A stretch of DNA of 64,000 nt from Arthrobacter sp. StoSoilB20 (GTDB taxonomy: Bacteria; Actinomycetota; Actinomycetes; Actinomycetales; Micrococcaceae): NCBI RefSeq assembly GCF_019977295.1, contig NZ_AP024651.1, positions 2,294,001 to 2,358,000 on the forward strand, given 5' to 3'. The translations under genes and the position numbers were made by a program. Of this stretch, positions 8,857 through 32,590 are shown piece by piece. The number at the start of each line of letters is the position of its first letter. Position 1 is the first letter of the stretch. The notes under the pieces were generated by a model, which saw only the letters and a program-made list of their open reading frames with translations, was not told where the DNA came from and ran no database searches.

Positions 8857-11250
8857 TTAATAACGAGGAAGGGGATCGTGATGTCCGCTGGTGAACTCAT
8901 GCGAGCCACCCCCTGCAGTATGCGTTGAGCCGTCCGGCATCTTCACCGTCGCGTTCACGGACATCGGGATTTCCACGTGGAGCGTGAACTTTCCATGCTC
9001 GATGCTCCAGGCGCTGCTGATCCGGCCGTGGACGGTATCGACGGCGGCCCTCGCCCAGGCGATGTCGCCCCCTGGCTGCGGGGCTATGGTTACCGTGCGG
9101 TAACCGGCGTGTGCCTCGTCTGGATTCTCCGGAAGGCGTATACCAGCCACATGGGTGTAGAGGAACGATCCCACTGCGCCTTTGCTGTAGTGGTTGAGGG
9201 ACCCACGGGCACCACTGGTTGTCACTCCATCCCACCATTCCCACATGGTGGTGGCCCCGGCGTCGAGCATCCCCAGCCAGGAGGGTGAGCCGGTGGAAAG
9301 CAGGAGCTCGTAGGCAACGTCGGGATAACCGTGGTCGGCGAGCGTTGGCAGCAGGAGGCCTGTGGCGAGGAAGCCGGTGCCCAGCCGGTTTCCGTTGAGG
9401 CCGATGAGTTCAACGAGCCTGGCGGCAGCGAGGGGCGCAAGGTGGGGCGGTACGAGACCGAAGGCCAGGGCTCGGACGTAGTGTCCTTGGGACTCTTCGC
9501 TCAACAGGCCGGAGTCCTCGAGGTACTCTTCGCGCCAGGCCGCGAGGACTTCGGCGGCCAGCGCGCGGCAATGGTCAGCGGTCGGGAAATCACCGAGTAC
9601 GCCGGCCGCTTTCGCCAGCAGGTCAGCAGACCGGTAGAGGTAGGCCGTAGCAACGATGCCATGATCCCGCGCGGGGTCCGGATTCGGTGGAGTGTCCGGT
9701 TCCAGCCATTCGCCAAAGTGGAAGCCGGTGTCCCACAGGTACTGCTCGTGGGGCAGGGGAGCGGGCCGTAGGGCTGCCCGCTCAGGGTGGCGTCCGCTGG
9801 CTGCGGCTCTGGACGCGTAGTCAACCCATGAGCGCATGGCGCCGAAGGCCTCCCGCAGCGCCTGTCGGTCTCCATAGGCACGCCACAAGGACCATGGGAC
9901 GAAGACGGCTGCGTCACCCCATCCGGCAGAGCCTGCGGCTGAATCTTCGAAGAAGTTGCCGGAGGGTCCGTCGCCGGCCGGATTCGGAACCACAGTGGGC
10001 ACACGGCCGTCAGGCCCCTGGTCCGCTGACAGATCCCGGAGCCACTTTGCGCTGAATCCCGAGACATCGAACATGAGGGCGGCCGTATCCACAAAGACCT
10101 GCCAGTCACCGGTGAAGCCGGACCGTTCCCGTTGCGGGCAGTCAGTGGGCACGTCGCAAGCGTTGCCGCGGAAACTCCAAAGTATGGCGTCGTGCAGGGC
10201 ATTGAGACGGTTGTTGCTGCATTCGAAGGTGCCGGTGCGCTGGAGATCGGAATGGACCACGACGGCGGTGAGGTCCTCGTGCGCGATGGCGCCCGCGTTG
10301 CCTTCAACTTGTACGTAACGGAAGCCGTGGGTCGTGTGCCGCGGTTCAAATACGTCACCTGCGCGGCCGGCTGAGATGATTTCGTCGATTTGGCCGGCGG
10401 GCAGGGGAGTTTTGCTGGCGAAGTCGAAGGCCCGGATGTTTTCCAGCGATACCAGGCCTGCGTCGTCCAGTATTTCGCCGTGCTTTAGCGTGATGTGTGT
10501 TCCGAAGGGCCCCAGCGCCCGCAGGCGAACCCAGCCGTTGATGTTCTGGCCGAAGTCAACCACGGTGATCCCTGACGCAGGAACAGCCACAGTGACGGGA
10601 GCCAGCTCCTCGATGCGCCGCACAGGAGGGGCGATGGGCCGGATGAGCCGCTCCCGGTTGTCGTACAACCCGCCCTGGCGGGGGACCACGGGAACCCAGC
10701 CATCCGCCGTCGTAATTTCCTCCGCGGAGCCTAAGAGTCGGAAGTCGGTGGTCTGGCCGTCCATGAGGTCGGCGCGGGTGATGTGGCTTTCCCGCGATTC
10801 CCAGTCAGCGCTTGTTGCGGCAAGGGTTCCCCGGGCAGATGTTACGGATGCGAGGAAGGCTGTGGCCGTGCCGAAGCCATCGGCCCGGCGTTCAAATCCA
10901 TGCCTGCCGCGGAACCAGCCATCCGAGAGTAATGCGGTGATGACGTTCCCGCCACTGACCAGTTGGTGGGTGATATCCCAGGACTGGACCTGCAGCCGCT
11001 TGCGGTAGGAGGTGAATCCTGGAGTCAGTTCCTCGTCCCCTGCACGAATACCGTTGACGAACAGCTCGTAAATGCCGTGGGCCGTGGCATGTGCTGTTGT
11101 CTCGCCGTCGTCCGGGCTCCACGTGAAGTGGCTGCGCATCCAGTACGCAGGCCGCTTGCCGGGTTCAGCCGGTTGATCTTCTGCTGGAGAGATCCACGTG
11201 GCGGCGTTAAGTGCCGCCTGCGGCGACAGGGAAGATCGGTGGTCAGTCAA
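8857..11250 (-). CDS. GH78 alpha-L-rhamnosidase (first copy)
   Basis: A 797-residue glycoside hydrolase that removes terminal alpha-L-rhamnose. Accessory beta domains come first (VNG and YDVR-like segments), then the (alpha/alpha)6 barrel. The general-acid region is VPTDCPQRERSGFTGD (about 365-380), and the second catalytic Glu is in TTMWEWWDG (about 668). The TTG start at 11250 is chosen because AGAGGAG lies 5 bases before it and the sequence upstream is not family-like; earlier in-frame starts would run into the operator. There is no signal peptide, so it acts in the cytoplasm on imported glycosides. It is divergent from a TetR gene, with a 26-bp palindrome between them. A second, distinct GH78 lies at 26774. 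Confidence 0.93.
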   Translation of the reverse strand: MTDHRSSLSPQAALNAATWISPAEDQPAEPGKRPAYWMRSHFTWSPDDGETTAHATAHGIYELFVNGIRAGDEELTPGFTSYRKRLQVQSWDITHQLVSGGNVITALLSDGWFRGRHGFERRADGFGTATAFLASVTSARGTLAATSADWESRESHITRADLMDGQTTDFRLLGSAEEITTADGWVPVVPRQGGLYDNRERLIRPIAPPVRRIEELAPVTVAVPASGITVVDFGQNINGWVRLRALGPFGTHITLKHGEILDDAGLVSLENIRAFDFASKTPLPAGQIDEIISAGRAGDVFEPRHTTHGFRYVQVEGNAGAIAHEDLTAVVVHSDLQRTGTFECSNNRLNALHDAILWSFRGNACDVPTDCPQRERSGFTGDWQVFVDTAALMFDVSGFSAKWLRDLSADQGPDGRVPTVVPNPAGDGPSGNFFEDSAAGSAGWGDAAVFVPWSLWRAYGDRQALREAFGAMRSWVDYASRAAASGRHPERAALRPAPLPHEQYLWDTGFHFGEWLEPDTPPNPDPARDHGIVATAYLYRSADLLAKAAGVLGDFPTADHCRALAAEVLAAWREEYLEDSGLLSEESQGHYVRALAFGLVPPHLAPLAAARLVELIGLNGNRLGTGFLATGLLLPTLADHGYPDVAYELLLSTGSPSWLGMLDAGATTMWEWWDGVTTSGARGSLNHYSKGAVGSFLYTHVAGIRLPENPDEAHAGYRTVTIAPQPGGDIAWARAAVDTVHGRISSAWSIEHGKFTLHVEIPMSVNATVKMPDGSTHTAGGGSHEFTSGHHDPLPRY

Positions 11251-11304
11251 GGGAACTCCTCTGGGAAAGCCGGCATCGTCACCGCTTTCGCCAATGGTAG
11301 AACA

Positions 11305-11330
11305 TAAAAACAACGTGTGCACTGTTTTTA
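11305..11330. promoter_or_regulatory. 26-bp operator-like palindrome between GH78 and TetR genes
   Basis: Outer arms TAAAAACA (11305-11312) and TGTTTTTA (11323-11330) are perfect complements around a partly symmetric core. It is strikingly AT-rich against its surroundings. It sits between the divergent starts at 11250 and 11360, the normal place for a TetR operator that controls both genes. Confidence 0.6.
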
Positions 11331-11359
11331 TTCACTACAGCTTTGTCTACGCTGGGAAG

Positions 11360-12007
11360 GTGCGAACACGTCGGAAAACAGGAAGCTATGAAGTTGGGCG
11401 TGCCAAGCGCGCCGAAATCCTGGATGCCGCAACCAGGCTTTTCGCAGCCTCCGGCTATCACAAGGTTCCCCTGTCCCAAGTGGCAGCGGACGTCGGCCTC
11501 AGTGAAAGCGGCCTCATGCATCACTTCCGTTCCAAGAAGCACCTCCTGCTCGGTGTTGCGGAGCAGCGGTTGGAACGAACGGCAACGTGGTGGGGTTCGC
11601 GCCAGGAAGGCAATGCCAAGGAGCCGGTTGCGCTGTTCCACAACATGGTGGACTCTACGGGTGAGCTGGTGGGCGAGCCGGGCCTTATTGAGCTTTTCGT
11701 GCTGATCTCCGCCGAGGCCGCGGACACCACCACGCCCGCGCACCAGCTGTATGCCTCATGGTACGAACGGGCCGTGCGTGAGACGGCCGGGCGGCTCGCC
11801 GAGGGCGTTGAGCGTGGCTATCTCCGGTCGGACACCAACCCGGCAGCATGCGCCCGGGAAATCATCGCCGTCAGCGACGGCCTTCAGTTGCAATATGTGC
11901 TGTCCGGGGGAACCCTGGACCTGGTGGAGGGTGTCCGGGACTACGCGCGGCGCCTGGCCAGGTCGCTCCTTGCCCCCGAATATCTGGACGCCGCTGAAGC
12001 GATCTAG
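11360..12007 (+). CDS. TetR/AcrR family transcriptional regulator
   Basis: A 215-residue regulator with a classic N-terminal TetR domain (AEILDAATRLFAASGYHKV..., GLMHHFRSKKHLLLGV). The GTG at 11360 is favoured. It follows a TACGCT-like -10 by 6 bases, so the mRNA may be leaderless. An ATG at 11294 would place the palindromic operator inside the coding sequence and add non-family residues. It most likely represses the divergent rhamnosidase gene and itself, with a rhamnoside or flavonoid as inducer (inference). Its stop overlaps the stop of the convergent IclR gene by 4 bp. Confidence 0.88.
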   Translation: MRTRRKTGSYEVGRAKRAEILDAATRLFAASGYHKVPLSQVAADVGLSESGLMHHFRSKKHLLLGVAEQRLERTATWWGSRQEGNAKEPVALFHNMVDSTGELVGEPGLIELFVLISAEAADTTTPAHQLYASWYERAVRETAGRLAEGVERGYLRSDTNPAACAREIIAVSDGLQLQYVLSGGTLDLVEGVRDYARRLARSLLAPEYLDAAEAI

Positions 12008-12834
12008 CGCATCCGCACACTCTCGCTGGGTCCCGGGTTGAAGCCCAGGTTTCGCGATACCGCCCGGGCAGTCGCCTGAACAGCCGGCGCCAGGACATTC
12101 GGAGGCGTAGCGCCATCAGGAACCACAATGGACAGCGCCGCCACCACGGACCCTTCCGCGCCGTATATGGGTGAGGCCACCGATACGGTTTTTGAGGGTG
12201 CAGATCGCCGGATCATGGCCAGGCCCGTCCTGCGGACATCGGAGAGCGTGCGCCTCAGTTGACCTTCCGGCATGGAATCCACTCCCACCTCGGCGTCGGG
12301 TGGCTGAGTGATCACTGACTCCTGGAAGTCTGCATCGGCACCGGACAGCAGGACCAGGCCCACCGCCGTCGACCTCAACGGCGCCCGCCCGCCGACGCGA
12401 TAGGCGACCTCCGTGGCCTCCTTGGATGACAACCGCTCGATCAGCACGGCCTCATTTTTGTCCCGCACGGCAAGCAGCACATGATGGCGCGTCACTGCGA
12501 AGAGGTCCTCAAGGTAGGGCAGTGCGATCTCCCGGACGCCGTGCCCGCGGGGTGACAGCGATGCTACCTCCCACAACCTGACGCCAACAACGTAACGCCC
12601 GTCCTCCAAACGCTCCAAGGCTCCCCACGCAACAAGGCGCCCGATCAAGCGCAGGGCAGTGGGAGCCGGCATATCAGCCAACCTCGCCATGTCCGACAAC
12701 GTCAACGCACGACGCCGGTCGCTGAAGACGGCGAGAAGGCTCAGGGCGCGGTCGATCACGGGTTCGCCCTGCTTGGGCCGCTTGCCGCGCTGCGGTTTTT
12801 CGATGCCGTTCCCATCGTTGGCCTGCGTCAACAT
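12004..12834 (-). CDS. IclR family transcriptional regulator
   Basis: A 276-residue regulator. An N-terminal winged helix covers about residues 20-80 (ALSLLAVFSDRRRALTLSDMA..., APTALRLIGRL). The C-terminal IclR effector domain contains HHVLLAVRD, VGGRAPLRSTAVG and the SVASPIYGAEG strand. The start at 12834 is supported by AAAGGA five bases before the ATG; the longer reading upstream has no family similarity. It is divergent from the ABC importer operon at 13065. IclR proteins commonly control aromatic catabolism, so it is the best candidate regulator of the 13065-25559 operon. Confidence 0.88.
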   Translation of the reverse strand: MLTQANDGNGIEKPQRGKRPKQGEPVIDRALSLLAVFSDRRRALTLSDMARLADMPAPTALRLIGRLVAWGALERLEDGRYVVGVRLWEVASLSPRGHGVREIALPYLEDLFAVTRHHVLLAVRDKNEAVLIERLSSKEATEVAYRVGGRAPLRSTAVGLVLLSGADADFQESVITQPPDAEVGVDSMPEGQLRRTLSDVRRTGLAMIRRSAPSKTVSVASPIYGAEGSVVAALSIVVPDGATPPNVLAPAVQATARAVSRNLGFNPGPSESVRMR

Positions 12835-12873
12835 GAATCCTTTCAACGCCCCGAGTGATCTCCACCACAATAC

Positions 12874-12892
12874 TGTTTCAACCAATGAAATA
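12874..12892. promoter_or_regulatory. Candidate IclR operator upstream of the importer operon
   Basis: TGTTTCA at 12874-12880 and TGAAATA at 12886-12892 form an inverted repeat with 6 of 7 matches and a 5-base spacer. It lies 40 bases upstream of the IclR start and 170 bases upstream of the importer operon. The IclR assignment rests on position only. Confidence 0.4.
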
Positions 12893-13064
12893 CACATGGG
12901 GCGAAGGGCTGCCCTCAAAGGACTCTTGAAGAAGCCGGTTACCGGAAGCCATCTGACGAGAGGGCGCCGTCGGATCGGCCCGGACAGGTCACAGCCGACC
13001 ATGTCCAGGCCGCCGGTCCCACATCTCGACACACGATTCCATCACGAATGCGAAGGCGCAGCAC

Positions 13065-14621
13065 ATGAATCTCCTCACCTCACCTGCACGTCGGAGCGCG
13101 GCCGTCCTGGCCGGGGCGCTCCTCCTTGGGTCACTCACAGCCTGCGGTGGCGGTTCAGCTGCCACATCCAACGTGGACAAGAGCACGCTGACCATCGCAA
13201 CAGACAGCGACAGTGCATCGTTCGGCTATGACCCCCTGCGGGTTTCGGACGCCCAGCGCCAGTTCTTCGAAGGCCTCTACGAGAACCTCATGACCCTTCA
13301 ACCAGATGGCAGCGTTGGTCCCGGCCTTGCCAAGGAATTCAGCTACAACGCGGACAACACCGTCCTCACGTTGACCCTCAAGGAAGGCGTGACTTTCACT
13401 GACGGGTCCACCTTGGACGCAGCCTTGGTCAAGGCCAACCTTGACCGTCGCACCGACACCGCCCTCAGCGCGTACTCGGCCATAGCGAAGGGCGGTGCAC
13501 AGGAAATTGCCTCCGTGGATGTTGTCAGCCCCACCCAAGTGGCCATAACGTTCGCAAAAGCCCAGCCGGGATTCGAAAAGAACCTCACCTCCACCTTGGG
13601 CATGATCGTAGGCAAGAAAGCCGTTACGGACACAGCCAGCCTGGCCACCACCCCGGACGGCTCCGGGCCCTACACCCTGGACAGCGCCACAACTGTGAAG
13701 GGCAACAAGTACGTCTTCACCAAGAACGACAAGAACGCTGACGCCTCCAAATACCCGTACAACAAGATCACCTTCAGCGTGATCATGGACCCCCAGGCCC
13801 GTGCCAACGCGCTGGTTTCCGGCCAGGCGGACGTCGCCTCGCTGACCTCTCCCACGGTCGACTTCGCCAAGTCCAAGGGAGTGGGCGTATCCCAGATCGG
13901 CGGCACCGTCCAGACCATGATCTCCTTCGACAAGATCGGCAAGACCGCACCTGCATTCGCCAGCGAAAAGGTGCGCCAGGCCTTCCAGTACGCCATCAAC
14001 CGCCAAGCTTTGGTGGACGCGCTCCACAAGGGCGACATTCCTGCATGGAACGCACTGCCCAAGGACTCTGCGGGATTCTCGGAAGAACTGAACAAGACCT
14101 ACGCCTATGATCCCGCCAAGGCCAAGAGCCTCTTGGAGGAAGCCGGGTACGGCAGCGGCTTCGAGTTCACCATCATTGCCGGCCCCCAGACGCAAACGGA
14201 CCTGCAGGCAGTACAAAAGGACCTGGCAGCCGTTGGAATCACCATGAACGTCAAGCTGGCGGCCTCCACGGATGAAGCCTTCGCAGCCGTGGCTACAACC
14301 CCGCTGGGTTACGCCCCCTTGGGCTGGGACAACCCGGTTGGACTGATGTACGGAGCCGTCCTCAGCGGCTTCACCAATGTCCAGAAAGCTACGGATGATC
14401 AGCTGAATGCTGCGACGGCCGAGGCTGCGGCGGCGAAGGACGATGCTTCCAGGAAGACCGCCCTGACCAAGCTCAACACCCGCCTGGTGGAGTCCGGTTG
14501 GATGATCCCGCTCTATGAATCCCTCACCAACCAGGGCTACAACACCAAGAAGGTCCAGCAGGTGAAGTTCGCCGGAAGCAACGTGTACCCGCTGCTGTCC
14601 TCGTACGCACCCACCAACTGA
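13065..14621 (+). CDS. Family-5 ABC transporter substrate-binding lipoprotein
   Basis: A 518-residue extracellular solute receptor of the peptide/nickel/oligosaccharide class (SBP_bac_5). The signal peptide has a twin-basic n-region and ends in lipobox LTAC, so Cys27 should be lipidated and the mature protein anchored outside the membrane. It first gene of an operon with two permeases and two ATPases. Family-5 proteins bind peptides but also oligosaccharides and plant glycosides. The position next to rhamnosidases, a glucosidase and aromatic catabolic genes suggests a glycoside or phenolic ligand here (inference). A 15-bp hairpin follows the stop codon. Confidence 0.92.
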   Translation: MNLLTSPARRSAAVLAGALLLGSLTACGGGSAATSNVDKSTLTIATDSDSASFGYDPLRVSDAQRQFFEGLYENLMTLQPDGSVGPGLAKEFSYNADNTVLTLTLKEGVTFTDGSTLDAALVKANLDRRTDTALSAYSAIAKGGAQEIASVDVVSPTQVAITFAKAQPGFEKNLTSTLGMIVGKKAVTDTASLATTPDGSGPYTLDSATTVKGNKYVFTKNDKNADASKYPYNKITFSVIMDPQARANALVSGQADVASLTSPTVDFAKSKGVGVSQIGGTVQTMISFDKIGKTAPAFASEKVRQAFQYAINRQALVDALHKGDIPAWNALPKDSAGFSEELNKTYAYDPAKAKSLLEEAGYGSGFEFTIIAGPQTQTDLQAVQKDLAAVGITMNVKLAASTDEAFAAVATTPLGYAPLGWDNPVGLMYGAVLSGFTNVQKATDDQLNAATAEAAAAKDDASRKTALTKLNTRLVESGWMIPLYESLTNQGYNTKKVQQVKFAGSNVYPLLSSYAPTN

Positions 14622-14632
14622 TCCACCGATGA

Positions 14633-14664
14633 CAGGGCGTCGGTTCCCAGGAACCGGCGCCCTG
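14633..14664 (+). terminator. Intercistronic hairpin after the binding-protein gene
   Basis: A 15-bp stem (one G-U pair) spans 14633-14647 and 14650-14664, lying between the binding-protein stop and the permease start. No T-tract follows, so it is more likely a partial attenuator or 3' stabiliser that raises binding-protein mRNA above permease mRNA than a full terminator. A similar arrangement exists at 63251. Confidence 0.6.
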
Positions 14665-14684
14665 CCCGACCAATGGAGGTCACC

Positions 14685-15626
14685 ATGGCAATGTTCGTCA
14701 CCAAACGCCTGCTGATGGCGCTCACCACCGTGCTGGTGGTGGCGGTACTGGCGTTCCTGCTGGTCCACGCCATGCCAGGCAGCCCAGGTGCGGTGTCGCT
14801 GGGAGCAGGCGCTTCGCAGGAGGCCATCGACCAGTTGAACCAATCGCTCGGCTGGAACGATCCGCTGGTGGGCCAGTTCTTCCGCTGGCTCGGTGATGCC
14901 GTCCAAGGCAACCTCGGAAACTCCCTCATTGACGGCCGGTCCGTTAGTGCAGACCTGGCCAACAGGCTTCCGGTCACCGCTTCCCTCGCCGCCGGCGCCA
15001 CCGTCCTCAGCGCAGTCTTCGGCATCGTCCTCGGCGTCACAGCAGCTGTTCGCGGTGGCCTCCTGGATCAGCTCATTGGAGGATTCGTCGGGCTCCTCGT
15101 CGCGCTGCCTGCGTTCTGGATCGGCGTCATCTTCGTTTACCTCTTCGCCGTCCAATCGTCCGTTTTCCCGGCCACCGGCTATGTCCCGTTCGACGTCTCC
15201 CCGCAGGATTGGGCGATGTCCCTGGCCCTTCCCGTGATCACGCTCGCCGTTGGCGGCGCAGCGTTTATTGCCCGGCAGACCAGGGCTTCCATGCTCGAGG
15301 CGTTGCAGCAGGAACACATCCGGACGCTCCGCGCCACAGCTACTCCCACATGGAAGATCCTCTATATCCACGCCCTGCGCTATGCGAGCTTGCCGATCGT
15401 GGCAGGCATCGCGCTGCAGTTCATCGGCCTTTTCGGCGGTTCCGTCATTGCCGAGCAACTATTCGCCATGCCGGGCCTTGGCCAAGCCGTCCAAACCTCC
15501 GTCAGCACCCACGACGCCCCGGCAGTCCAAGGCGTAGTGGTGATCGCCACGGTGGTTGTGGTCGCTGTGAACCTGGTGCTCGAAATCGCTACCAAATTCC
15601 TTGACCCGAAGTTGCGTGCCTCATGA
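14685..15626 (+). CDS. ABC importer permease, DppB/OppB type
   Basis: A 313-residue membrane permease with six hydrophobic segments and the EAA-type loop (RASMLEALQQEHIRTLRA). The N-terminal F-V-T-K-R-L-L start is typical of DppB. The ATG at 14685 is chosen because GGAGG lies 6 bases upstream; an ATG 12 bases earlier would cover that site. Its last codons overlap the next gene (ATGA). It forms the transmembrane channel together with the permease half of the following fusion protein. Confidence 0.9.
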   Translation: MAMFVTKRLLMALTTVLVVAVLAFLLVHAMPGSPGAVSLGAGASQEAIDQLNQSLGWNDPLVGQFFRWLGDAVQGNLGNSLIDGRSVSADLANRLPVTASLAAGATVLSAVFGIVLGVTAAVRGGLLDQLIGGFVGLLVALPAFWIGVIFVYLFAVQSSVFPATGYVPFDVSPQDWAMSLALPVITLAVGGAAFIARQTRASMLEALQQEHIRTLRATATPTWKILYIHALRYASLPIVAGIALQFIGLFGGSVIAEQLFAMPGLGQAVQTSVSTHDAPAVQGVVVIATVVVVAVNLVLEIATKFLDPKLRAS

Positions 15627-17674
15627 TTCCCACCCTTCCAGCAACAACGCCGGCAACACCCCCGGCATCCCCACGCAGGACAGCCCTGGCCAGGCTTTCA
15701 GGGCACCGACTGCCCACCTCCCCAGCGGGGATGGCCGGCACCCTCTGGCTGGCGGCGATGATCATCGCATCCCTGACGGCGCCCTGGTGGTTGCCCTTCA
15801 AAACCGAAGACCAGGACTTCACCGCCGTCCTCTCCGGACCGACCGCCGCGCACTGGCTTGGCACGGATGAACTGGGCCGGGACATCCTCAGCCGGATCTT
15901 CGCCTCAGCAGCCGAGACACTGGGGACCTCGTTCATCACGGTGTTGGTCGGCGTCGGGCTTGGGACCCTGATGGCACTGGCCGCGGCCAACAGCCTGCGG
16001 GCCGAAGGCGTCATCAGCCGGGTCACCGAGATCATGATGTCGTTGCCCGGAACGGTCATTATCCTGGCCGTCATTGGCGCCGTGGGCACCAACATCCCCC
16101 TGATCATGGCCATCCTGGGCGTTCTGATCTCAGCCGGCATTTACCGGGTGATGCTCGGCCAGGCAAAGTCCTTGCAAAACCAGCTCTACGTGGATGCGGC
16201 CAAGGTGGACGGCCTGGGCCCTGTTGCCATCAGCGCCCGCCACGTACTGCCCGGGCTGGCGACCACCATCGTGGTGCAATCGGCGCTGATCTTCGCAGTG
16301 GGCCTCCTGATCCAGGCCGGCCTCGCGTTCATCGGCTTCGGTCCACCGCTGCCCCAGCCCAGCTGGGGCGGCATGATCCAGAGTGCCTCACAGCATGTCT
16401 ACGACGCCCCATGGCTTATGGTTCCCACCGGCGTTGTGTTGGCCCTGACGGTTCTGTCGGCCAACGCGATCGGCAACGCCCTGGGCAAGGCCCCCAACGC
16501 CACAGCTTCGCACCTTCCCTCCGCCGCCATCCGGCGAAAGCGGGCCGCTCAGGCTGCCGCCGCAGCCGCGGCCGCCCCTGCGGTGCGCGACGCACCTGGG
16601 GCCGGCAAACTGAGCGTCCGCGGAGTCTCCGTAGGGGTCGACGGCGGCACTCCACTGGTCACGGACGTCTCCTTCGACGTCGAGCCGGGAACGGTCCTTG
16701 GGCTGGTTGGCGAGTCCGGCTGCGGCAAGACCATGACCGCGTTGTCGCTGATGGGGTTGCTGCCTTCCGGCGTCGCCATCACCGGCGGGCAGATTCTCTG
16801 GAACGGCAGGAACCTGGCCGCTGCCACGGACAAGGACTTGGAAGGCATCCGGGGGCGCGACATCGCCCTCATCTCCCAGGAGCCAATGCGGGCACTGGAT
16901 CCGATGTTCACCGTGGGCTACCAGCTGACTTCTGCCATCCGCCGACTCCGTTCGGTGGGAAAGACGGCAGCGAACGCCGATGCGTTGGGCCTGCTGGAGA
17001 AGGTGGGGATCGTTGACGCGAAGCGCATCCTCAAGACCTACCCGCACCAGATCTCGGGCGGCATGGCACAGCGCGTAGCCATTGCCCTGGCGTTGTCCGG
17101 TAATCCACGCCTGTTGGTTGCCGACGAACCGACCACCGCCTTGGACGTTACCGTCCAGGCCGAGATCCTGTCCCTCCTCCGAACGCTCGTGAAGGACACG
17201 GGCATGTCTGTAGTCATGGTGACGCACGACCTCGGAGTAGTGGCCGACATCTGCGACCACGTTGCGGTCATGTACGCCGGCCAAGTGGTGGAGAACGGCC
17301 GCACAGCCGGCATCCTGGACAACCCACGGCATCCTTACACCCTGGCACTGCTTGCGGCCGATCCCCACGCGAATACGGCAGACGATATGCCCGAACGCCT
17401 GGCCACCATCCAGGGCCAGGTGCCGCAGCCCAAGGACTGGCCGGCAGGCTGCCGGTTTGCCGCCCGCTGCCAGTTCGCAGGATCTGCCTGCCTGGTACCT
17501 GTGCCCCTCCTGCCTTCGGGAACGGGGTCCGGCCTGGTGCGTTGCGTCAAGGCCGATGAACTGGCCATTGAAGGGTTGTCGTGGGTGCCCACTGAGCTCC
17601 CTTCAGAACACGCGGTTCCGGCGGACGTACCCGCCCGGCACAGACTGGACATCGTAGAAAAGGACCTGGCATGA
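15623..17674 (+). CDS. Fused ABC permease-ATPase (DppC-DppD in one chain)
   Basis: A 683-residue protein joining two subunits that are normally separate. Residues about 1-290 are a DppC-type permease with the conserved TDELGRDILSR and an EAA loop (YVDAAKVDGLG). Residues about 300-330 are a linker of basic residues and a run of alanines. Residues about 330-683 are a DppD-type ATPase with Walker A GESGCGKT (363-370), signature ISGGMAQR, Walker B LLVADEP, and the C-terminal Cys-rich oligopeptide/dipeptide motif. No frameshift or stop separates them. Fusion fixes one ATPase to one permease. Such fusions occur in Actinobacteria but are uncommon. Confidence 0.93.
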   Translation: MIPTLPATTPATPPASPRRTALARLSGHRLPTSPAGMAGTLWLAAMIIASLTAPWWLPFKTEDQDFTAVLSGPTAAHWLGTDELGRDILSRIFASAAETLGTSFITVLVGVGLGTLMALAAANSLRAEGVISRVTEIMMSLPGTVIILAVIGAVGTNIPLIMAILGVLISAGIYRVMLGQAKSLQNQLYVDAAKVDGLGPVAISARHVLPGLATTIVVQSALIFAVGLLIQAGLAFIGFGPPLPQPSWGGMIQSASQHVYDAPWLMVPTGVVLALTVLSANAIGNALGKAPNATASHLPSAAIRRKRAAQAAAAAAAAPAVRDAPGAGKLSVRGVSVGVDGGTPLVTDVSFDVEPGTVLGLVGESGCGKTMTALSLMGLLPSGVAITGGQILWNGRNLAAATDKDLEGIRGRDIALISQEPMRALDPMFTVGYQLTSAIRRLRSVGKTAANADALGLLEKVGIVDAKRILKTYPHQISGGMAQRVAIALALSGNPRLLVADEPTTALDVTVQAEILSLLRTLVKDTGMSVVMVTHDLGVVADICDHVAVMYAGQVVENGRTAGILDNPRHPYTLALLAADPHANTADDMPERLATIQGQVPQPKDWPAGCRFAARCQFAGSACLVPVPLLPSGTGSGLVRCVKADELAIEGLSWVPTELPSEHAVPADVPARHRLDIVEKDLA

Positions 17675-18678: not shown

Positions 18679-18707
18679 TTTTCCGCCCAAGACTCCAGGA
18701 GCAACCA

Positions 18708-20698: not shown

Positions 20699-20792
20699 AA
20701 TCGACTGTTCACGCCGGGGAGCGTATTCGACATCCTTGGAGGGAACGCCCGGAACATCGAGGATCCGGCGAAAGACGCAGAGGGAGTCAACG

Positions 20793-21650: not shown

Positions 21651-21749
21651 CTTTTCCGCACTACTGGCTACGGCCCGGCCTTCAGGCCCGACTTTGCCGT
21701 GCCCTCTACCTTCCGACAACCGCCTTCGGGCGAACCTGAAAGGCCCATC

Positions 21750-25559: not shown

Positions 25560-25580
25560 GAAGCCCAACAACGACAAAAA

Positions 25581-25608
25581 GGTCCGGACTCCTTGAAGAG
25601 TCCGGACC
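25581..25608. terminator. Bidirectional intrinsic terminator
   Basis: A perfect 11-bp stem (GGTCCGGACTC, loop CTTGAA, and its complement) is flanked by an A-rich run on the left and CTTTGTTGTTT on the right. It lies between the convergent stops at 25559 and 25624 and can end transcription from both sides. Confidence 0.9.
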
Positions 25609-25623
25609 CTTTGTTGTTTCAGC

Positions 25624-26691
25624 CTAGAAGTCCAGGCCCACACGCCGCTGCGGCGGAGGGCCGACGACGGTCAGGTCCATCTCTGCCTGTGCCCGGCCAA
25701 AACCCTCCATGTCCATGTACGGAGCACCGCCCTCGGTATAGATGTAGTCCTCTGTGGGCTCGTTGAAGTACTCGAAGAAACCATTGAAGACCGATGGCGT
25801 CAGGAAGCCCACCATCTGGGTGTTGTGGGCATCGAACGCGAAGGAATGGATGGTTCCTGCAGGGGCGTGGACAAAGTCGCCCTTGGTCAGCAGCATCTCC
25901 CGGCCGTTCGCATAGAGCCACATGCGGCCCTCCGTGCACAGGAAGTTCTCCGTGTGCTCGGAGTGGAAGTGCAACGGGATATAGGGAGATTTGGCGCCTT
26001 TGGTGTGGACGGCAAAATAGCTATCCCCGGTATTCTGCGGCCGTGAAAGGTAGGAGAACATGGTCTGGTAGCTGACCAGGCGCTCGCCTTCGCCCGCGCT
26101 GAGGAAGTAAGGGCTCAGCGTTGCGGGCAGGCCGGCGTTTTGTTGCAGTCCCGGCTGGACGCGTTCCACATCCGGGAAAGTGATGCCGAATTCGGCACCG
26201 ACCTCTGCTTGTTCCCGGCTGGTCAGCGTGTGGCCGGCGCGGGCGGGCGGAACGTGTGAGTCGATGGGAGTGCCCACACGCTCGTAGTAGGCATCCGCCC
26301 CGCCGGGTGTCATCCAGTTGAGGAAGCGGGTGTAGTGGCTGGCCATGCGGTAGGCGTGGGGAGTACCCGGCGGAATGACTACTGAATCTCCGGGTGTCAG
26401 GATACGGCTTTCGCCCGGCAGCCACACGTGCAGGATGCCGTCGAAGACGTACAGCGTTTTATGTTCGATCGCGTGGCTGACAAAGGGCGACTCAGCACCC
26501 ATGCCGCCCGAAACGTAAGCAGCACTGAAGATACCGCCCGTGTCTGCCGCCCGGGCGATCACGGTGATGAGTTGGCCGTTGACCTCGTAGCGGGCGCCTT
26601 CGCCGGAGGCCATGTAGTAGGGGACAGCTTCGCCCGGAAGCGTGTTGGCCAGGGGGAGTGTTTTGTTGATTTCCTCGACGCTGAGGGGCAT
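25624..26691 (-). CDS. Quercetin 2,3-dioxygenase-like bicupin
   Basis: A 355-residue two-domain cupin with the length and architecture of bacterial quercetinases, which open the flavonol C ring and release carbon monoxide. The C-terminal cupin has a full metal site: His241, His243, Glu248 in HFHSEHTENF and His282 in AGTIHSF. The N-terminal cupin keeps His73 and His112 but has Val71 and Lys78 where the family has His and Glu, so it probably holds no metal. There is no signal peptide. It is the last gene of the leftward unit MFS - GH1 - GH78 - cupin. With a rhamnosidase and a beta-glucosidase upstream, quercetin from rutin is a natural substrate (inference). Confidence 0.88.
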   Translation of the reverse strand: MPLSVEEINKTLPLANTLPGEAVPYYMASGEGARYEVNGQLITVIARAADTGGIFSAAYVSGGMGAESPFVSHAIEHKTLYVFDGILHVWLPGESRILTPGDSVVIPPGTPHAYRMASHYTRFLNWMTPGGADAYYERVGTPIDSHVPPARAGHTLTSREQAEVGAEFGITFPDVERVQPGLQQNAGLPATLSPYFLSAGEGERLVSYQTMFSYLSRPQNTGDSYFAVHTKGAKSPYIPLHFHSEHTENFLCTEGRMWLYANGREMLLTKGDFVHAPAGTIHSFAFDAHNTQMVGFLTPSVFNGFFEYFNEPTEDYIYTEGGAPYMDMEGFGRAQAEMDLTVVGPPPQRRVGLDF

Positions 26692-26773
26692 GTGTTCCTT
26701 CTTTCCTTCGTCAGGCTGTGTGTCTGCTTTTAGCTTCGCGCACCACGCCGGTGGCCCGGTGCTGGATTTTCAA

Positions 26774-29053
26774 TCATTGGAAGGTGAGCTCGGCGGGGTG
26801 GGCGCTGATGGTGTGCCGGCCCGGGCCGACTGTTTGGTCGTCCTCGCCCGGGAGCCGCAGGACTGCCTCGGTGCCCTCCGGAACCGTCGCGGAGACCTCG
26901 AGCCGGCCATCAACCAGGTCCCATCGGACCGAGGCAATGCCGTGGGGCGTCTCCAGGGTGGTTTCTGCCCAGGTGAGTCCACCGCCGGGCTGCGGGGCAA
27001 TGAGGATGCGGCTGTAGCCGGGGTCCAACGGCGATAGTCCGCCGATGGTGCGGTGCATCCAGTCCACCACTGCGCCCAGGGCATAGTGGTTGAAGCTGGT
27101 CATTTCGCCCGGGTTGATGCTGCCGTCCGGAAGCATGGAGTCCCACCGTTCCCAGATGGTGGTGGCGCCCATGGTGACGGAGTAGAGCCACGAGGGGTTT
27201 TCGGTTTGGAGCAGGAGCCGGTACGCCGCGTCCAAGTGGTCGGTGACCGTCAGGGCATCGGTCACAAAGGGTGTGCCCGCGAAACCTGTGGAGATACGGA
27301 AGCCCGACTTTTCCACCAGTTCGGCCAGCCGATGGCCTGAGAACTTACGATCCGGCTCCCCGAGAATTCCGAAGACAATGGCCAACGCATAAACAGTGGT
27401 GCAATCGCTGGTGATGACGCCTTCTGCGGACACATAGTGCGCCTTGAAGGCCGTCCGCAGGTCCGCCGCCATGGCATCAAACTCGGCCATGGCCCCCTTG
27501 TCCCCGAGAACTTTGGCAGCTGCAGCCACCAATGACGCTGTGCGGTAAGCGCACAATGTCGCCACCACGTGCTTGTCAGCTTTCGCCGCCCACGGCTGGT
27601 CCGGCGAGGCATCGGGATCGAGCCAGTCACCAAACTGGAAACCGGTGTCCCACAACCCGTTGGGCGAGAGCTTGCTGCGCAGCCGCCGGGCGTGCCCGGT
27701 CATGGAAGCGAACTGCTCCTCGAGTACTCGTCGATCACCATAGGCCTCCCACAGTGCCCAAGGGACCCACACGGCAGCGTCGCTCCACACCGCAGCCGTG
27801 TCCGGTGCGCCGAACTCCGCAGGCTGCTCAATGTACTTCAGGACGTTGGGCACCACGAAAGGCACCAGGTCCTCGTCGTGGCTCTGTTCCAAGGCCAGGT
27901 CACGCAGCCAATCCCGCAGGAAGTCACGGCTGTCGAACAGGAAGGCAGCGCTCGGTGCGAACGCCGAGAGGTCACCTGTCCAGCCGAGCCGTTCATCCCG
28001 CTGCGGGCAGTCAGTGGGGACGTCCACGAAGTTTCCCCGCATGCCCCACACCGCATTTTCATGGAGGCGGTTCAGCAGGGGATTCGACGTTTGGAAAGTG
28101 CCGATCCGCTTCATGTCCGAACTGATCACGACGGCGGTCAGGCCGCCGTCGAGCAGGGCGTCAACACCTCCTGGCCAGCCCTCAACCTCCACGTACCGGA
28201 AGCCGTGGAACGTCAGGGTCGGCTCGAAGACGTCTGCCCCGCCCGAAAGCGTGAACCGGTCAGTCGCCTCAGCCGAGCGTAAGGGCCGGGTGCCCAACTC
28301 GTCATGCTCCAGCACTTCTGCGTGACGGACGGTGACCACGTCACCGGCAGTACCAGTCACAGACGCCCGGACCCATCCCACCAGGTTCTGGCCAAAGTCC
28401 ACCAGGACCTTGCCGGCGGGCGACGTCCATACTTTCGTCGGCTGCAGCTCCATTTGACGGCGTACGGGCGGACCGATGTAGGGCTCAAGACGGCTGAGGT
28501 TATCGTCCAGAATGCGCACCGGGGTCCACTGCCCTGAGCTGAACCCAGGGGCGAGCCAGGCGTCGTCGAATCGTCGGGCGTCTATTGACTGCCCGTCATA
28601 AACGTCATTGGCCGTGGTGGCCGAAGGCCCGGCGGTCCACGAGCCGTCCGTGCCGATCACTTGCTGGTGGCCGTCGGCGAACCGAACCCTCAACTCGGCA
28701 AACGCACCCAGCTCCTGGCCGTAGTACTTCGAACCCCCCGACCAAGCCAGCCGGCCCCTGTACCAGCCGTTTCCCAGCGCGAGTCCGATGACCGTCGTCG
28801 TGCTGATCAGCGCGGTGACGTCGAGCTCGCTGTACCGGACCCGCCACTCGTAGCTGGACCAGCCCGGCGTCAGCAGGTCCTGGGAAGCACGCTGGCCGTT
28901 GACCCACGCTTCCACCACGCCAAGTGCGGACAGGAAGAGCGTGGCGGACTCCACATCGCCGTGGCCTTCGTCGAGCTCGAACTCGCCGCGAAACAGCGGT
29001 GCGCCGTCGTGCTCTTTGTCCGCAGCAATCATGCGGGCGTGCCAGGTAGTCAT
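26774..29053 (-). CDS. GH78 alpha-L-rhamnosidase (second copy)
   Basis: A 759-residue GH78 enzyme. N-terminal beta-sandwich modules include WVNGQRAS and GNGWYRGRLAW; the catalytic barrel has general-acid motif DCPQRDERLGWTGD (about 345-358) and the second catalytic Glu in TTIWERWDS (about 634). The acid motif is one residue longer than in the copy at 8857, so the two belong to different GH78 branches and may prefer different linkages. No signal peptide, so it is cytoplasmic. It is 48 bp downstream of the GH1 gene and 82 bp upstream of the cupin gene. Confidence 0.94.
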   Translation of the reverse strand: MTTWHARMIAADKEHDGAPLFRGEFELDEGHGDVESATLFLSALGVVEAWVNGQRASQDLLTPGWSSYEWRVRYSELDVTALISTTTVIGLALGNGWYRGRLAWSGGSKYYGQELGAFAELRVRFADGHQQVIGTDGSWTAGPSATTANDVYDGQSIDARRFDDAWLAPGFSSGQWTPVRILDDNLSRLEPYIGPPVRRQMELQPTKVWTSPAGKVLVDFGQNLVGWVRASVTGTAGDVVTVRHAEVLEHDELGTRPLRSAEATDRFTLSGGADVFEPTLTFHGFRYVEVEGWPGGVDALLDGGLTAVVISSDMKRIGTFQTSNPLLNRLHENAVWGMRGNFVDVPTDCPQRDERLGWTGDLSAFAPSAAFLFDSRDFLRDWLRDLALEQSHDEDLVPFVVPNVLKYIEQPAEFGAPDTAAVWSDAAVWVPWALWEAYGDRRVLEEQFASMTGHARRLRSKLSPNGLWDTGFQFGDWLDPDASPDQPWAAKADKHVVATLCAYRTASLVAAAAKVLGDKGAMAEFDAMAADLRTAFKAHYVSAEGVITSDCTTVYALAIVFGILGEPDRKFSGHRLAELVEKSGFRISTGFAGTPFVTDALTVTDHLDAAYRLLLQTENPSWLYSVTMGATTIWERWDSMLPDGSINPGEMTSFNHYALGAVVDWMHRTIGGLSPLDPGYSRILIAPQPGGGLTWAETTLETPHGIASVRWDLVDGRLEVSATVPEGTEAVLRLPGEDDQTVGPGRHTISAHPAELTFQ

Positions 29054-29101
29054 CAGGGTAGCCTCCAGGGTTTTAGGGATTTGCAGGTGGTGCGGTCAGG
29101 A

Positions 29102-30373
29102 TCAGGCAGGTTGGCTTGCGGGTTCCAGCGAGGCGCCGTTGCTCTGCGCCACGCTGCCCAGCCAGTGCGCACTGGGTTTGGGAGTGCGCTCCTGCGTTGC
29201 CCGGTCCACCGCGATAAGGCCGAACTTGGGAACGTATCCGAACACCCACTCGAAGTTGTCGAATGCGGTCCAGGCGATATAGCCACGAACGTCGATGCCG
29301 TCTGCCAGGCAGGAGGCAACGCCTGCAACAGCGGTGCGCAGGTAATCCAGGCGCTGGGTGTCGTCCTCGGTTGCCAGCCCGTTCTCAGTGACGATGACGG
29401 GGATCTGTGCAATGCGGGCAGCCTCGCGGATGGTTGCCTCCAGGCCCTCAGGGTAGATTTCTTCGCCCATCTGGTTGGTGGGAACGCCGTCCTCGGCGTG
29501 GACAAGTCCCTCGGCTCCGAACACCGTGCGTCCGTAGGTCTGGATTCCCACAAAGTCGTCTCCGCGGGAGGCTTCCAGGAAGCGTTCATTGACCTCGCGG
29601 CGTATCCGGTCCGCGTTGGCTTCCCCGCCCGGCGCGGCGTGGATGTCCGTGTTGGCCAGGGTCCAGCCCACCATGAGCTCAGGGTAGCGGGCTTTGATGG
29701 CGTCACGGCCGGCGTGGTGCGCTGCAAGTTTTACGTCGAAGCCTGCATCGGAGACGGTGAACTGGAAGGGGGCCACTCTCGCCGCTTCGATGTTGAGGCG
29801 CTCGGCCGCAGCAGCCCAGACGGGCACCTGGCCCCGGGTCTCGGCGGGGCCGCCACCAATACCGAGTTCCTTGAGCAACCACGGGAGGTTGGGTTCATTC
29901 AGCGTGCAAGCGACGCCGATCAGGTCACCGAGGTGCTCGGTAACGCGGGCGCAGTAGTGCCCGAATCGCTCCGGAGTGGCCGCGTCTTCCCATCCGCCTG
30001 CGGCCAGCAGCCAGAGCGGGGAGGTGAAGTGGTGGAAGGTGACCACCGGGGTCAGTCCGTGCTCGTGGCACGCCTCCAGGACGCGACGGTAGTGGTTGAG
30101 CGCCGCCGTCGAATATTGTCCTTCCTCCGGCTCGATCCGAGCCCACTCCAAGGAGAACCTGTAAGTGGTGAACCCGAGGCTCGCAATGAGGGCGATGTCC
30201 TCGCGGTAGCGGTGGTAGTGGTCGATTGCGTCGCCCGAGGGCTCGGCGAAGATGGTGCCGGGCAGTTGTTCCAGGAACCAGGTGTCGCTGTTGACGTTGT
30301 TTCCTTCAACTTGGTGTGCGGCGGTGGCGACTCCCCAGAGGAAGTCGTTGGGGAACGATGCGGAGCTTGTCAT
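29102..30373 (-). CDS. GH1 beta-glucosidase
   Basis: A 423-residue family-1 glycoside hydrolase. The acid/base Glu160 lies in CTLNEPN and the nucleophile Glu330 in IVTENGLA; the N-terminal FLWGVATAAHQVEG is diagnostic. It has no signal peptide and acts in the cytoplasm. Together with the downstream rhamnosidase it could strip rutinose stepwise from a flavonol: rhamnose first, then glucose. It follows the MFS transporter gene by 39 bp in the same operon. A role on other beta-glucosides cannot be excluded. Confidence 0.95.
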   Translation of the reverse strand: MTSSASFPNDFLWGVATAAHQVEGNNVNSDTWFLEQLPGTIFAEPSGDAIDHYHRYREDIALIASLGFTTYRFSLEWARIEPEEGQYSTAALNHYRRVLEACHEHGLTPVVTFHHFTSPLWLLAAGGWEDAATPERFGHYCARVTEHLGDLIGVACTLNEPNLPWLLKELGIGGGPAETRGQVPVWAAAAERLNIEAARVAPFQFTVSDAGFDVKLAAHHAGRDAIKARYPELMVGWTLANTDIHAAPGGEANADRIRREVNERFLEASRGDDFVGIQTYGRTVFGAEGLVHAEDGVPTNQMGEEIYPEGLEATIREAARIAQIPVIVTENGLATEDDTQRLDYLRTAVAGVASCLADGIDVRGYIAWTAFDNFEWVFGYVPKFGLIAVDRATQERTPKPSAHWLGSVAQSNGASLEPASQPA

Positions 30374-30412
30374 GGTTTTCCTTTTCGAGGCGTGAAGTTG
30401 GTTGTCCGCTGC

Positions 30413-31732
30413 TTAGCGAACACCCTTGATGAACGTGACGGTGATGCTGCCCAGGGCGCAGAGTGCTGCTGCTGCGAACCAGAGGAAGCCGTAGTTGTGT
30501 CCGCTGCCGATGGCCAGGATCGCCGGGGCGGCGGCGGGAACAATGATGTTGGGGATGCTGAGGGCGAGGCTGAAGACGGCCATGTCCTTGCCGGTGTCCC
30601 GGGCGTCCGGGAGGACGGCGGCGCACAATGCCAGATCCACGGTGAGGTACATGGCCTGGCCCATCGCGAATACGATCCATGCAACGACGAACTGTTCAAA
30701 GGACGTTGCCGTGGCGCCGAGCACCAAGGCCGTGGCCATGAGGAGCGCCGCCGCGATCACGAACGGCTTGCGGCGGCCGATCTTGTCTGAGAGCCAGCCG
30801 GAGGCTGTAAAGAACAGGATGCTGACGGGAGCCGAAATCAGGGTCAGCAAGCCGGCGCTCTTTCCGGCCTCGGCGATCGGCATGCCCAGGTGGTCCATCA
30901 GGAAGAAGATGAAGTAGGCGAAGAGTGCCGTCATGGCGATGCCGGCCAGGAATCGTGAAACCCAGGCCCAGGCAAAGTTGGGGTGCTTTCGCGGGTCGAC
31001 CAGGAAGGACTTCGCGAGTCCCTTGAGGTCAAGCGGCGGGAGTTCGGCACGTGTCTTCGCTGGATCCTTGTAGAGGACCAGGAGTGGGATGCTGCAGACG
31101 AGGGCCAGCAGGACCGGCACGCACATCATGAGCAGTGGGGCGTCCACCAGCCAGGCGGCAAGGTAGGAGCCCGCGGACATTGCCAGTGCGCCGGCCATGC
31201 CCATGGCACCCATGACACGCGCCCGTTTGTTGTCCGGAAGGGCCTCGATGGGAATCACCGCGTAGGCGTTGAACGCCGCTTGCGCAGAGACCAGGGCTAC
31301 GACGTACGCGGCGATGATCACGGGCGTGGACGGCACGGTACCAATCACGGCTGCGGCGAGCAAAGCAGGTACCAGCCCGCCGATGATCCAAGGCCGACGG
31401 CGGCCGAACCGGCCGGCCGTGCGATCGGACAGGGCACCGGTGATCGGGATGGTGACGAGCAAGAGAAGTGAGCTGATGGAGACGGCCATGCCGTAGCTTG
31501 CCTCTTTGGCCGCCGGATCAACTACTGCCAAGCGCAGGGAGAGCGCCGTGCCCAGGGTCAGGCTCATGATGTACATGCCCAGGGCTGCGATGAGGACCAG
31601 GGCCATGGTCTTTTTACTGGACGGCAGCGTCTGAGGCGAAACGTTCGACGCCGGCTTGGCGGCTTCTGCTGATGAGCCAGGTGCGGCATTGGCAGGTTCC
31701 ATGACCTGTGCCTGAGCTGTGGGGTCACCCAT
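30413..31732 (-). CDS. MFS transporter (GPH/sucrose-type)
   Basis: A 439-residue permease with about twelve membrane segments. The SDRTAGRFGRRRPWI loop between segments 2 and 3 and the matching SDKIGRRKP loop in the second half are typical of glycoside-cation symporters. The start at 31732 has a near-perfect AAAGGAGG seven bases upstream; earlier in-frame starts cover that site. The first 40 residues are hydrophilic. As the first gene of the unit ending in GH1, GH78 and the quercetinase-like cupin, it probably imports a rhamnoside or glucoside intact. It is divergent from a TetR gene. Confidence 0.9.
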   Translation of the reverse strand: MGDPTAQAQVMEPANAAPGSSAEAAKPASNVSPQTLPSSKKTMALVLIAALGMYIMSLTLGTALSLRLAVVDPAAKEASYGMAVSISSLLLLVTIPITGALSDRTAGRFGRRRPWIIGGLVPALLAAAVIGTVPSTPVIIAAYVVALVSAQAAFNAYAVIPIEALPDNKRARVMGAMGMAGALAMSAGSYLAAWLVDAPLLMMCVPVLLALVCSIPLLVLYKDPAKTRAELPPLDLKGLAKSFLVDPRKHPNFAWAWVSRFLAGIAMTALFAYFIFFLMDHLGMPIAEAGKSAGLLTLISAPVSILFFTASGWLSDKIGRRKPFVIAAALLMATALVLGATATSFEQFVVAWIVFAMGQAMYLTVDLALCAAVLPDARDTGKDMAVFSLALSIPNIIVPAAAPAILAIGSGHNYGFLWFAAAALCALGSITVTFIKGVR

Positions 31733-31850
31733 AAAAATCCTCCTTTGGATCAGAACCACCTTTGGCTCTCTGTGACCGGTGATGAAGGCCTCGGGCAGTA
31801 ACGGCCGGGCCTTTCATGCAACGGTAACCAAACCTAGACCACATTGGAAT

Positions 31851-31895
31851 ACTTTAGTGAAGATTTCTTTACCAAAGTGGAAAAGAAACTTGGTA
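31851..31895. promoter_or_regulatory. Overlapping inverted repeats between MFS and TetR genes
   Basis: ACTTTAGTGAA (31851-31861) and TTTACCAAAGT (31868-31878) form an 11-bp inverted repeat with 9 matches. A second, looser pair, TACCAA (31870-31875) and TTGGTA (31890-31895), overlaps it. The segment is AT-rich and lies just upstream of both divergent genes, as expected of the operator of the TetR protein encoded at 31921. Confidence 0.5.
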
Positions 31896-31920
31896 GCCTC
31901 GTCTGAAAGGAGGTCTATCC

Positions 31921-32529
31921 ATGGATCAGGAAACCCGCGGGCCGGCCCGCACGGGCAAGCGCGCCCCCTACGCCAACGGGGCCAGGAAACGAGCCGAACT
32001 GGTAGAGGCGGCGTTCCAGGTCTTCGCCGAGAAAGGCTATTTGGGATTGTCCATCCGGCAGATAGCGGAGGCCGTGGGCACCAGCCATACCGCACTTCTC
32101 CATCATTTCGGCAGCAAAGAAGCGCTGCTTGAAGCCGTGCTGGTACTCCGTGAAGAACGGGAAGGGCCCTGGAGGCAGGAGCTGATCAGCGAACAGGGCC
32201 TTCTGGAAACTGTCCCCGCCGTGATGAGGCACAATGCCGGTATCCGGGGAGTGATCCAACTCGATGCCACGCTGCGTGCGGAGGCCATCAGCCCCGACCA
32301 TCCGGCCCATGACTTCCTGTTGAGGCGCAACCAGGACTTTGTTGACTCAGTCGTCGCCGAGCTGGAGCGGGAGCGTGAGGCCGGGCGCCTGCGGCAAGGC
32401 ATCCAGCCACACATAGTGGCCCGCCAGATCACCGCCCTTGTGGACGGAATCCAACTCGCCTGGCTCTATGACGAGTCGGTGGACATGGCCGAACACCTTC
32501 AGGCATTCATGGACCTCATCAAGGGCTAG
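31921..32529 (+). CDS. TetR/AcrR family transcriptional regulator
   Basis: A 202-residue regulator with an N-terminal TetR domain (RAELVEAAFQVFAEKGYLG..., TALLHHFGSKEALLEAV). A strong AAAGGAGG precedes the ATG. The C-terminal domain is similar in layout to that of the regulator at 11360, which suggests related ligands. It is divergent from the MFS - GH1 - GH78 - cupin operon and most likely represses it. A nucleoside-hydrolase-like gene follows after 61 bp and may be on the same transcript. Confidence 0.9.
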   Translation: MDQETRGPARTGKRAPYANGARKRAELVEAAFQVFAEKGYLGLSIRQIAEAVGTSHTALLHHFGSKEALLEAVLVLREEREGPWRQELISEQGLLETVPAVMRHNAGIRGVIQLDATLRAEAISPDHPAHDFLLRRNQDFVDSVVAELEREREAGRLRQGIQPHIVARQITALVDGIQLAWLYDESVDMAEHLQAFMDLIKG

Positions 32530-32590
32530 GTCGAGGACTGCATCGGGACAACCACTTCGCAGTACCGTGTCAGGAGAGGCTCGCATTTAC

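Follow-up and report, generated by a model that had tools for sequence, protein, structure and literature searches.

A putative flavonol glycoside catabolic locus in Arthrobacter sp. StoSoilB20 with a candidate bacterial 1,2,3,5-tetrahydroxybenzene pathway

The 64,000-nucleotide stretch analyzed here (the window) covers positions 2294001–2358000 of the single-contig, 4.78 Mb genome of Arthrobacter sp. StoSoilB20, and at 8857–32529 it carries a locus that, on balance, probably serves the catabolism of flavonol (rhamno)glycosides, ending in a bacterial 1,2,3,5-tetrahydroxybenzene (THB) pathway. Gene identities, recurring linkage and conserved residues are observed, and from these we infer every reaction and substrate. 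The operon at its center likely encodes, in a bacterium, a pathway regarded until now as fungal, in which a protein of the DUF3500 family would be the ring opener. A preliminary description of this DNA had named two GH78 rhamnosidases, a GH1 enzyme, a bicupin, three hydrolases, a flavin adenine dinucleotide (FAD) hydroxylase, an FAH-family hydrolase, a DUF3500 protein, an ATP-binding cassette (ABC) importer, a major facilitator superfamily (MFS) transporter and three regulators, all of which were found at 8857–32529 by Pfam and NCBIfam scans. Gene content and linkage lend good support to its flavonol reading of the locus. It had also placed catabolism of the flavonol A ring in the operon while leaving the step itself open, and the evidence now points to the THB route.

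In the proposed pathway, the ABC importer or the MFS carrier would bring in the glycosides, for which rutin is a candidate and which may be taken up intact, and the GH78 and GH1 enzymes would strip rhamnose and glucose intracellularly. The bicupin quercetinase would open the C ring of the flavonol, quercetin in the proposed route, to give a depside and carbon monoxide, and a BD-FAE-type esterase would split the depside into protocatechuate, which would pass to a dioxygenase pair encoded elsewhere in the genome, and 2,4,6-trihydroxybenzoate. That a quercetinase followed by an esterase leaves 2,4,6-trihydroxybenzoate is established chemistry. The FAD hydroxylase would then convert 2,4,6-trihydroxybenzoate (or phloroglucinol) to THB, and the DUF3500 protein would open its ring. 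On chemical grounds, opening between neighboring hydroxyls would yield 2,4-dihydroxymuconate, the enol form of the acylpyruvate 2,4-dioxoadipate, and the dehydrated lactone of 2,4-dihydroxymuconate would be a 5-hydroxydienelactone. Cleavage of 2,4-dioxoadipate by the FAH hydrolase would, on the same grounds, release pyruvate and malonate.

The A-ring part of this proposal is carried by three tandem genes on the forward strand, encoding the FAH-family hydrolase (21699–22607, PF01557), a proposed acylpyruvate (2,4-dioxoadipate) hydrolase; the FAD aromatic hydroxylase (22607–24328, PF01494), the proposed THB maker; and the DUF3500 protein (24306–25559, with the ATG read at 24306). The hydroxylase scores 624.5 bits on the PRK06126 subfamily of NCBIfam (cut-off 445), and the DUF3500 protein scores 335.1 bits on PF12006 (gathering cut-off 27.2); it has invariant residues, and its predicted structure has a model pLDDT of 84. 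In the FAH protein, residues H80, E83, E124, E126 and D155, numbered from an ATG at 21750, are invariant in all 77 aligned rows; we take them to be the H-x-x-E pair and the acidic metal site. The tandem arrangement suggests hydroxylation, ring opening and acylpyruvate hydrolysis. Other than quercetinase, no known ring-cleavage family was found by Pfam among the 20 locus proteins scanned, and no extradiol ring-cleavage dioxygenase was among these 20 window proteins. The DUF3500 protein was thus proposed as ring opener by elimination from gene linkage, before the fungal literature was brought in. More distant DUF3500 proteins, drawn from a phylum search with matches in 21 of 296 genomes, keep W114, H201/H202, H397/H399 and R403 in most rows covering them; in the numbering of the histidine pairs, residue 1 follows the start methionine. 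Linkage to FAH cannot be read from the short flanks of that search, in which FAH is missing even beside the DUF3500 gene of the window. PF12006 is also over its cut-off in the Corynebacterium glutamicum control genome.

A search of relatives for the same gene set, suggested in the preliminary description, finds that a core of esterase, FAH, FAD hydroxylase, DUF3500 and quercetinase recurs in related Actinobacteria. Scanning a single genome of each species with DUF3500 confirmed 118 relatives. The best 80 of these loci were retained with flanks of up to 10 kb; they were chosen by similarity to the window DUF3500, so that Micrococcaceae are over-represented, and the identity thresholds for the counts were chosen after viewing the 36 closest loci. 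FAH is present in 77 of the 80, never more than 2 kb away from DUF3500, and the FAD hydroxylase in 59, with another hydroxylase type in 5 more. Quercetinase occurs at 53 loci and esterase 3 at 50, and 48 loci have both of these along with FAH and the hydroxylase. The 53 comprise 40 bicupin-type matches (L030–L058, L060–L065, L067, L070, L071, L106 and L107) and 13 matches at 27–33% identity that were taken as single-cupin. Among the 36 closest loci (L030–L065), the bicupin faces DUF3500 in 35, and the exception, L059, ends at a contig edge. Across 197 genomes of the family, the bicupin is found in 14 and DUF3500 in 11, with both in 10, the bicupin alone in 4 and DUF3500 alone in 1 (Fisher 5.6e-13, ignoring relatedness); both are present in 6 of the 12 genomes of the window's genus. 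The 80-locus and 197-genome sets share genomes (for example L039 and G123) and are not independent. Recurrence of the core in so many genomes makes the grouping more than chance. Pairwise identities of the core genes correlate at 0.75–0.84 (0.41 for the bicupin and esterase 3), values that are uncontrolled for the species tree and are given no weight here. Quercetinase was gained or lost at least 10 times over the DUF3500 tree, with 7 of these changes forced by well-supported branches. The nearest named relative by DUF3500 protein, among the matches listed, is Paenarthrobacter nicotinovorans at 96% identity.

The same linkage bears on a different role for the FAH protein, namely that it is an enzyme of L-rhamnose catabolism (2,4-diketo-3-deoxyrhamnonate hydrolase) rather than of ring catabolism. 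The L-2,4-diketo-3-deoxyrhamnonate hydrolase 8gsr is its second-best Protein Data Bank (PDB) match, and the model of that hydrolase, NF053535, is its best NCBIfam match, but the score of 154.3 bits lies below the cut-off of 500. FAH accompanies DUF3500 almost throughout the 80 loci, whereas a GH78 match occurs at only 20 of them. Moreover, RhaI is encoded elsewhere in the genome, at 4.29 Mb and over its own cut-off, and could take the released rhamnose. A rhamnose role for FAH is hardly credible.

The bicupin (25624–26691, reverse strand) would connect this core to flavonols. Residues 15–318 of its 355 align to Bacillus subtilis YxaG (PDB 2h0v, E 5.7e-65), and it matches QueD and the Aspergillus enzyme less strongly. 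In an alignment of 39 rows (the window and 38 loci), the C-cupin ligands H241, H243, E248 and H282 are invariant, while two of the four N-cupin ligand positions are replaced, with positions 71 and 78 lacking His/Glu in all 39 rows. These positions, placed by the 2h0v alignment, correspond to H62 and E69 of YxaG. Fungal quercetinases are reported to work with one metal site, and an intact N-cupin site is not a defining feature. With only its C-cupin site intact, the bicupin should likewise work with one metal site. The earlier assignment as a quercetinase-like bicupin is thus upheld by YxaG homology and an intact C-cupin, with the amendment that only one of the two YxaG metal sites is kept. Its identification as a quercetinase of YxaG type, with putative activity on flavonols, is largely supported. 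The 13 more distant loci carry a shorter, single-cupin quercetinase-like protein, for which 12 have a listed reading frame and L109 has none; the one compared with the PDB, from L092, matches both YxaG (E 3e-43) and QueD (E 4e-40).

A second kind of DUF3500 locus is without quercetinase (L073, L078, L086, L089 and L104). Here FAH is accompanied by an FAD hydroxylase of another kind (the single one scanned is MhpA-like), and most of these loci have a GntR regulator and a protein of about 143 residues with no NCBIfam match. This second kind possibly represents a variant of the pathway for gallate or phloroglucinol. In a study of Rhodococcus qingshengii RL1, the strain-specific genes include a DUF3500 protein with locus tags adjoining those of an MhpA-like hydroxylase, an MFS transporter and an FCD regulator (PMC8416521).

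Three esterase genes precede FAH on the forward strand: esterase 1 (18708–19694, BD-FAE, PF20434), esterase 2 (19691–20698, Abhydrolase_3, PF07859) and esterase 3 (20676–21650, BD-FAE, PF20434). In G100, G036 and G118, the bicupin is accompanied by a relative of esterase 1, and DUF3500 was not found in the 20 kb fetched, which makes esterase 1 the candidate depside splitter. These contexts suggest that the BD-FAE type of esterase 1 would split the depside, and the finding that relatives have an esterase gene next to those for quercetinase agrees with the depside esterase proposed earlier. The three esterases also suggest esterified substrates, and 27 of the 80 DUF3500 loci have no quercetinase match, indicating that the THB module serves other inputs too. 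Both points favor a reading in which the locus acts chiefly on plant glycosides of phloroglucinol type other than flavonols, with quercetinase as just one entry enzyme among several. This is improbable, given that quercetinase faces DUF3500 in nearly all of the closest loci and that glycosidases occur at 33 of the 53 quercetinase-bearing loci but at none of the 27 others.

The sugar-removing genes are less firmly attached. The likely operon at 13065–25559, several genes of which overlap by a few bases, encodes an Opp/Dpp-type importer, the three esterases, FAH, the FAD hydroxylase and DUF3500. The opposing unit runs on the reverse strand from 31759 down to 25624 and encodes the MFS transporter (30413–31759, PF07690), the GH1 beta-glucosidase-like protein (29102–30373, PF00232), GH78 alpha-L-rhamnosidase B (26774–29053) and the bicupin. 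Both end at one hairpin (25560–25625), foldable on either strand, which beats 200 of 200 shuffles per strand (z -5.85 and -6.01) and bears out the earlier picture of two facing units with a common terminator. GH78 A (8857–11322, reverse strand) and GH78 B each have four Pfam rhamnosidase domains, catalytic and accessory, over cut-off, and GH78 B aligns with residues 4–747 of 759 of the fungal alpha-L-rhamnosidase 6gsz (E 8e-187). The GH1 protein scores 265.8 bits on TIGR03356, below its cut-off of 478.5. Signal peptides, which the preliminary description had held to be absent from all hydrolases, were not obvious in a crude hydrophobicity check of the N-termini. Two more GH78 matches lie outside the window, at genome positions 2222492–2222791 and 3785442–3785738.

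A GH78-GH1-MFS-TetR arm of the window type accompanies the core at just 4 of the 36 closest loci (L031–L034); G137 has it too. From rhamnosidase A to the second TetR gene, the genes of G137 keep the order seen in the window, with no match to esterase 2 and with two extra genes. Other loci have different GH78s or none. This scarcity would fit a reading of the convergent units as unrelated neighbors, an importer/aromatic operon beside a rhamnoside-sugar unit. We consider it very improbable, as the bicupin, the first gene of that arm from the terminator, faces DUF3500 almost without exception, and GH78 genes sit within the esterase operon in other loci such as L037, L039 and L064. The idea of a complete single locus holds for the bicupin and core and does not hold as a fixed unit; the preliminary description had named separation of the two units in most relatives as evidence against it, and such separation is seen for the glycosidase arm and not for the bicupin. 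The recurring core is the aglycone pathway, and sugar removal and uptake are add-ons.

In G137, coenzyme A (CoA)-transferase III and fused carboxyltransferase genes follow DUF3500 with 4-base overlaps; this insert between DUF3500 and the bicupin (L137:1578–4345), encoding CoA-transferase III and an acetyl-CoA-carboxylase-type carboxyltransferase, is absent at that place in the window. Both kinds of gene also lie near DUF3500 in L031, and relatives of the G137 CoA-transferase and carboxyltransferase lie near 14 and 12 of the 80 DUF3500 loci, respectively. The L067 carboxyltransferase is similar to AccA/AccD models and weakly so to those of malonate decarboxylase, and it reaches no NCBIfam cut-off; nor does the L094 CoA-transferase. 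These genes may be what a malonate product needs in some relatives. For the protocatechuate half, an adjacent pair of PF00775 genes at genome positions 4642963–4644082 (reading frames of 289 and 206 residues, over cut-off), assigned from that profile only, can putatively serve. In a soil study, Paenarthrobacter and Pseudarthrobacter increased in quercetin-treated soil (PMC8195599); the increase of Paenarthrobacter fits loosely and points to no gene.

Several observations count against the proposed pathway. The same soil study reports that Paenarthrobacter also increased with benzoxazolinone, and that the Paenarthrobacter isolates were obtained from soils treated with benzoxazolinone and gramine rather than quercetin (PMC8195599). 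The window genome has no carboxyltransferase of the G137 type (best match 30% over part of the protein), and its closest relative of the CoA-transferase is 44% identical, which weakens the case for the last steps, the use of malonate, in this strain. Neither hydroxylase type is over the thresholds used in 16 of the 80 loci. FAH was not found in L097 and L102, which are misses, the third FAH-less locus of the 80, L048, being a short contig; nor does it appear in the 20 kb fetched from G064 and G161. The DUF3500 match of G161 (L139, C1:67726–68532), one of the ten family genomes with both bicupin and DUF3500, covers residues 136–414 only and has one internal stop codon; with no FAH nearby, this locus is possibly decaying. 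Only 7 independent pairs are available on the DUF3500 tree, too few to be informative: quercetinase and hydroxylase changed the same way in 3.3 and in opposite ways in 0.0 (median p 0.25). Finally, the sole solved DUF3500 relative found, 9x86, is titled a dehydratase, and the comparison made brought out no likeness to a ring-cleavage enzyme.

A non-oxidative role for DUF3500 has to be weighed here. The flavonol route to 2,4,6-trihydroxybenzoate would be kept, and another enzyme, or auto-oxidation of THB, which is labile, would open the ring. DUF3500 would follow or replace ring cleavage as a lyase, hydratase or dehydratase. We judge this unlikely, though deserving of serious attention. The scanned locus proteins offer no other candidate from a known ring-cleavage family besides the quercetinase, relatives about 25% identical may differ in reaction, and fungal work proposes ring cleavage: in Aspergillus nidulans, the DUF3500 protein AN10530 is the proposed converter of THB to 5-hydroxydienelactone (PMC12388069). 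Returning to DUF3500 as ring opener, a broader proposal can be made tentatively, with a little less than an even chance of being right. DUF3500 would be a bacterial ring-cleavage enzyme whose fold differs from those of known ring-cleavage dioxygenases, forming with FAH and the FAD hydroxylase an actinobacterial THB pathway to pyruvate and malonate, and bicupin or single-cupin quercetinases, glycosidases and malonate-activating genes would have been recruited around it to give complete flavonol glycoside loci.

The remaining features complete the locus. The importer is encoded on the forward strand by a family 5 solute-binding protein with a lipoprotein-like N-terminus (13065–14621, PF00496), a permease (14673–15626, PF00528), a fused permease and ATPase (15623–17674, PF00528 and PF00005) and an ATPase (17671–18678, PF00005). 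Upstream of this operon, in addition to GH78 A, lie a TetR-family gene (11198–12007, forward strand, PF00440) and an IclR-family gene (12004–13032, reverse strand, PF01614 and PF09339), both of uncertain start, and a second TetR-family gene (31921–32529, forward strand, PF00440) follows the opposing unit. The flanking genes scanned seem unrelated: ABC exporter genes and a TetR gene to the left, and nucleoside hydrolase, ferredoxin reductase-like and desaturase genes to the right. At 32438–36128, a nucleoside hydrolase-like gene is followed by a ferredoxin reductase-like gene that overlaps a fatty acid desaturase gene.

Among the plant phenolics of soil, flavonols are common. In the open-licence literature, no description was found of genes for aerobic bacterial breakdown of the phloroglucinol-type ring of flavonols, and the locus gives a concrete five-gene hypothesis for this process. 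If it is true, the uncharacterized DUF3500 family would gain a role. The hypothesis would also extend to bacteria the THB pathway, which a 2026 paper describes as so far restricted to fungi (PMC13094099).

Compared with known systems, the window bicupin is similar to B. subtilis YxaG (2h0v, 1y3t) over near full length and shares its C-cupin ligands, but has a degraded N-cupin site, and its gene lies beside ring-pathway genes. GH78 B resembles 6gsz over near full length, without an obvious signal peptide in the crude check. ApmL/Amc20 (9x86), titled a dehydratase of amipurimycin biosynthesis, is about 26% identical to the window DUF3500 protein, is shorter and belongs to a biosynthetic setting, and the stretch around H288–H294 is largely not shared. 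The Herbaspirillum fde flavonoid pathway reportedly combines an FAD hydroxylase, an FAH-type hydrolase for the flavonoid A ring and an extradiol dioxygenase. The locus shares with this pathway the FAD hydroxylase and the FAH-type hydrolase for the A ring, but it differs in lacking an extradiol dioxygenase among the scanned proteins and in the proposed opening of the C ring by quercetinase. Martins et al. (2024) are reported to have described a fungal cluster in which DUF3500 is joined by a monooxygenase, an FAH-like gene and a short protein, and to have named 2,4,6-trihydroxybenzoate as a related substrate. No gene here was matched to that short protein. Unlike the fungal THB pathway, the proposed one is bacterial and would be fed by quercetinase, esterases and glycosidases rather than gallate, and some bacterial relatives carry CoA-transferase and carboxyltransferase genes. 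Like the reported fungal cluster, the window links DUF3500 to a flavin monooxygenase and an FAH-family hydrolase, and like the fungal pathway it has a DUF3500-family protein, likened to AN10530 by family name only, as the proposed ring opener.

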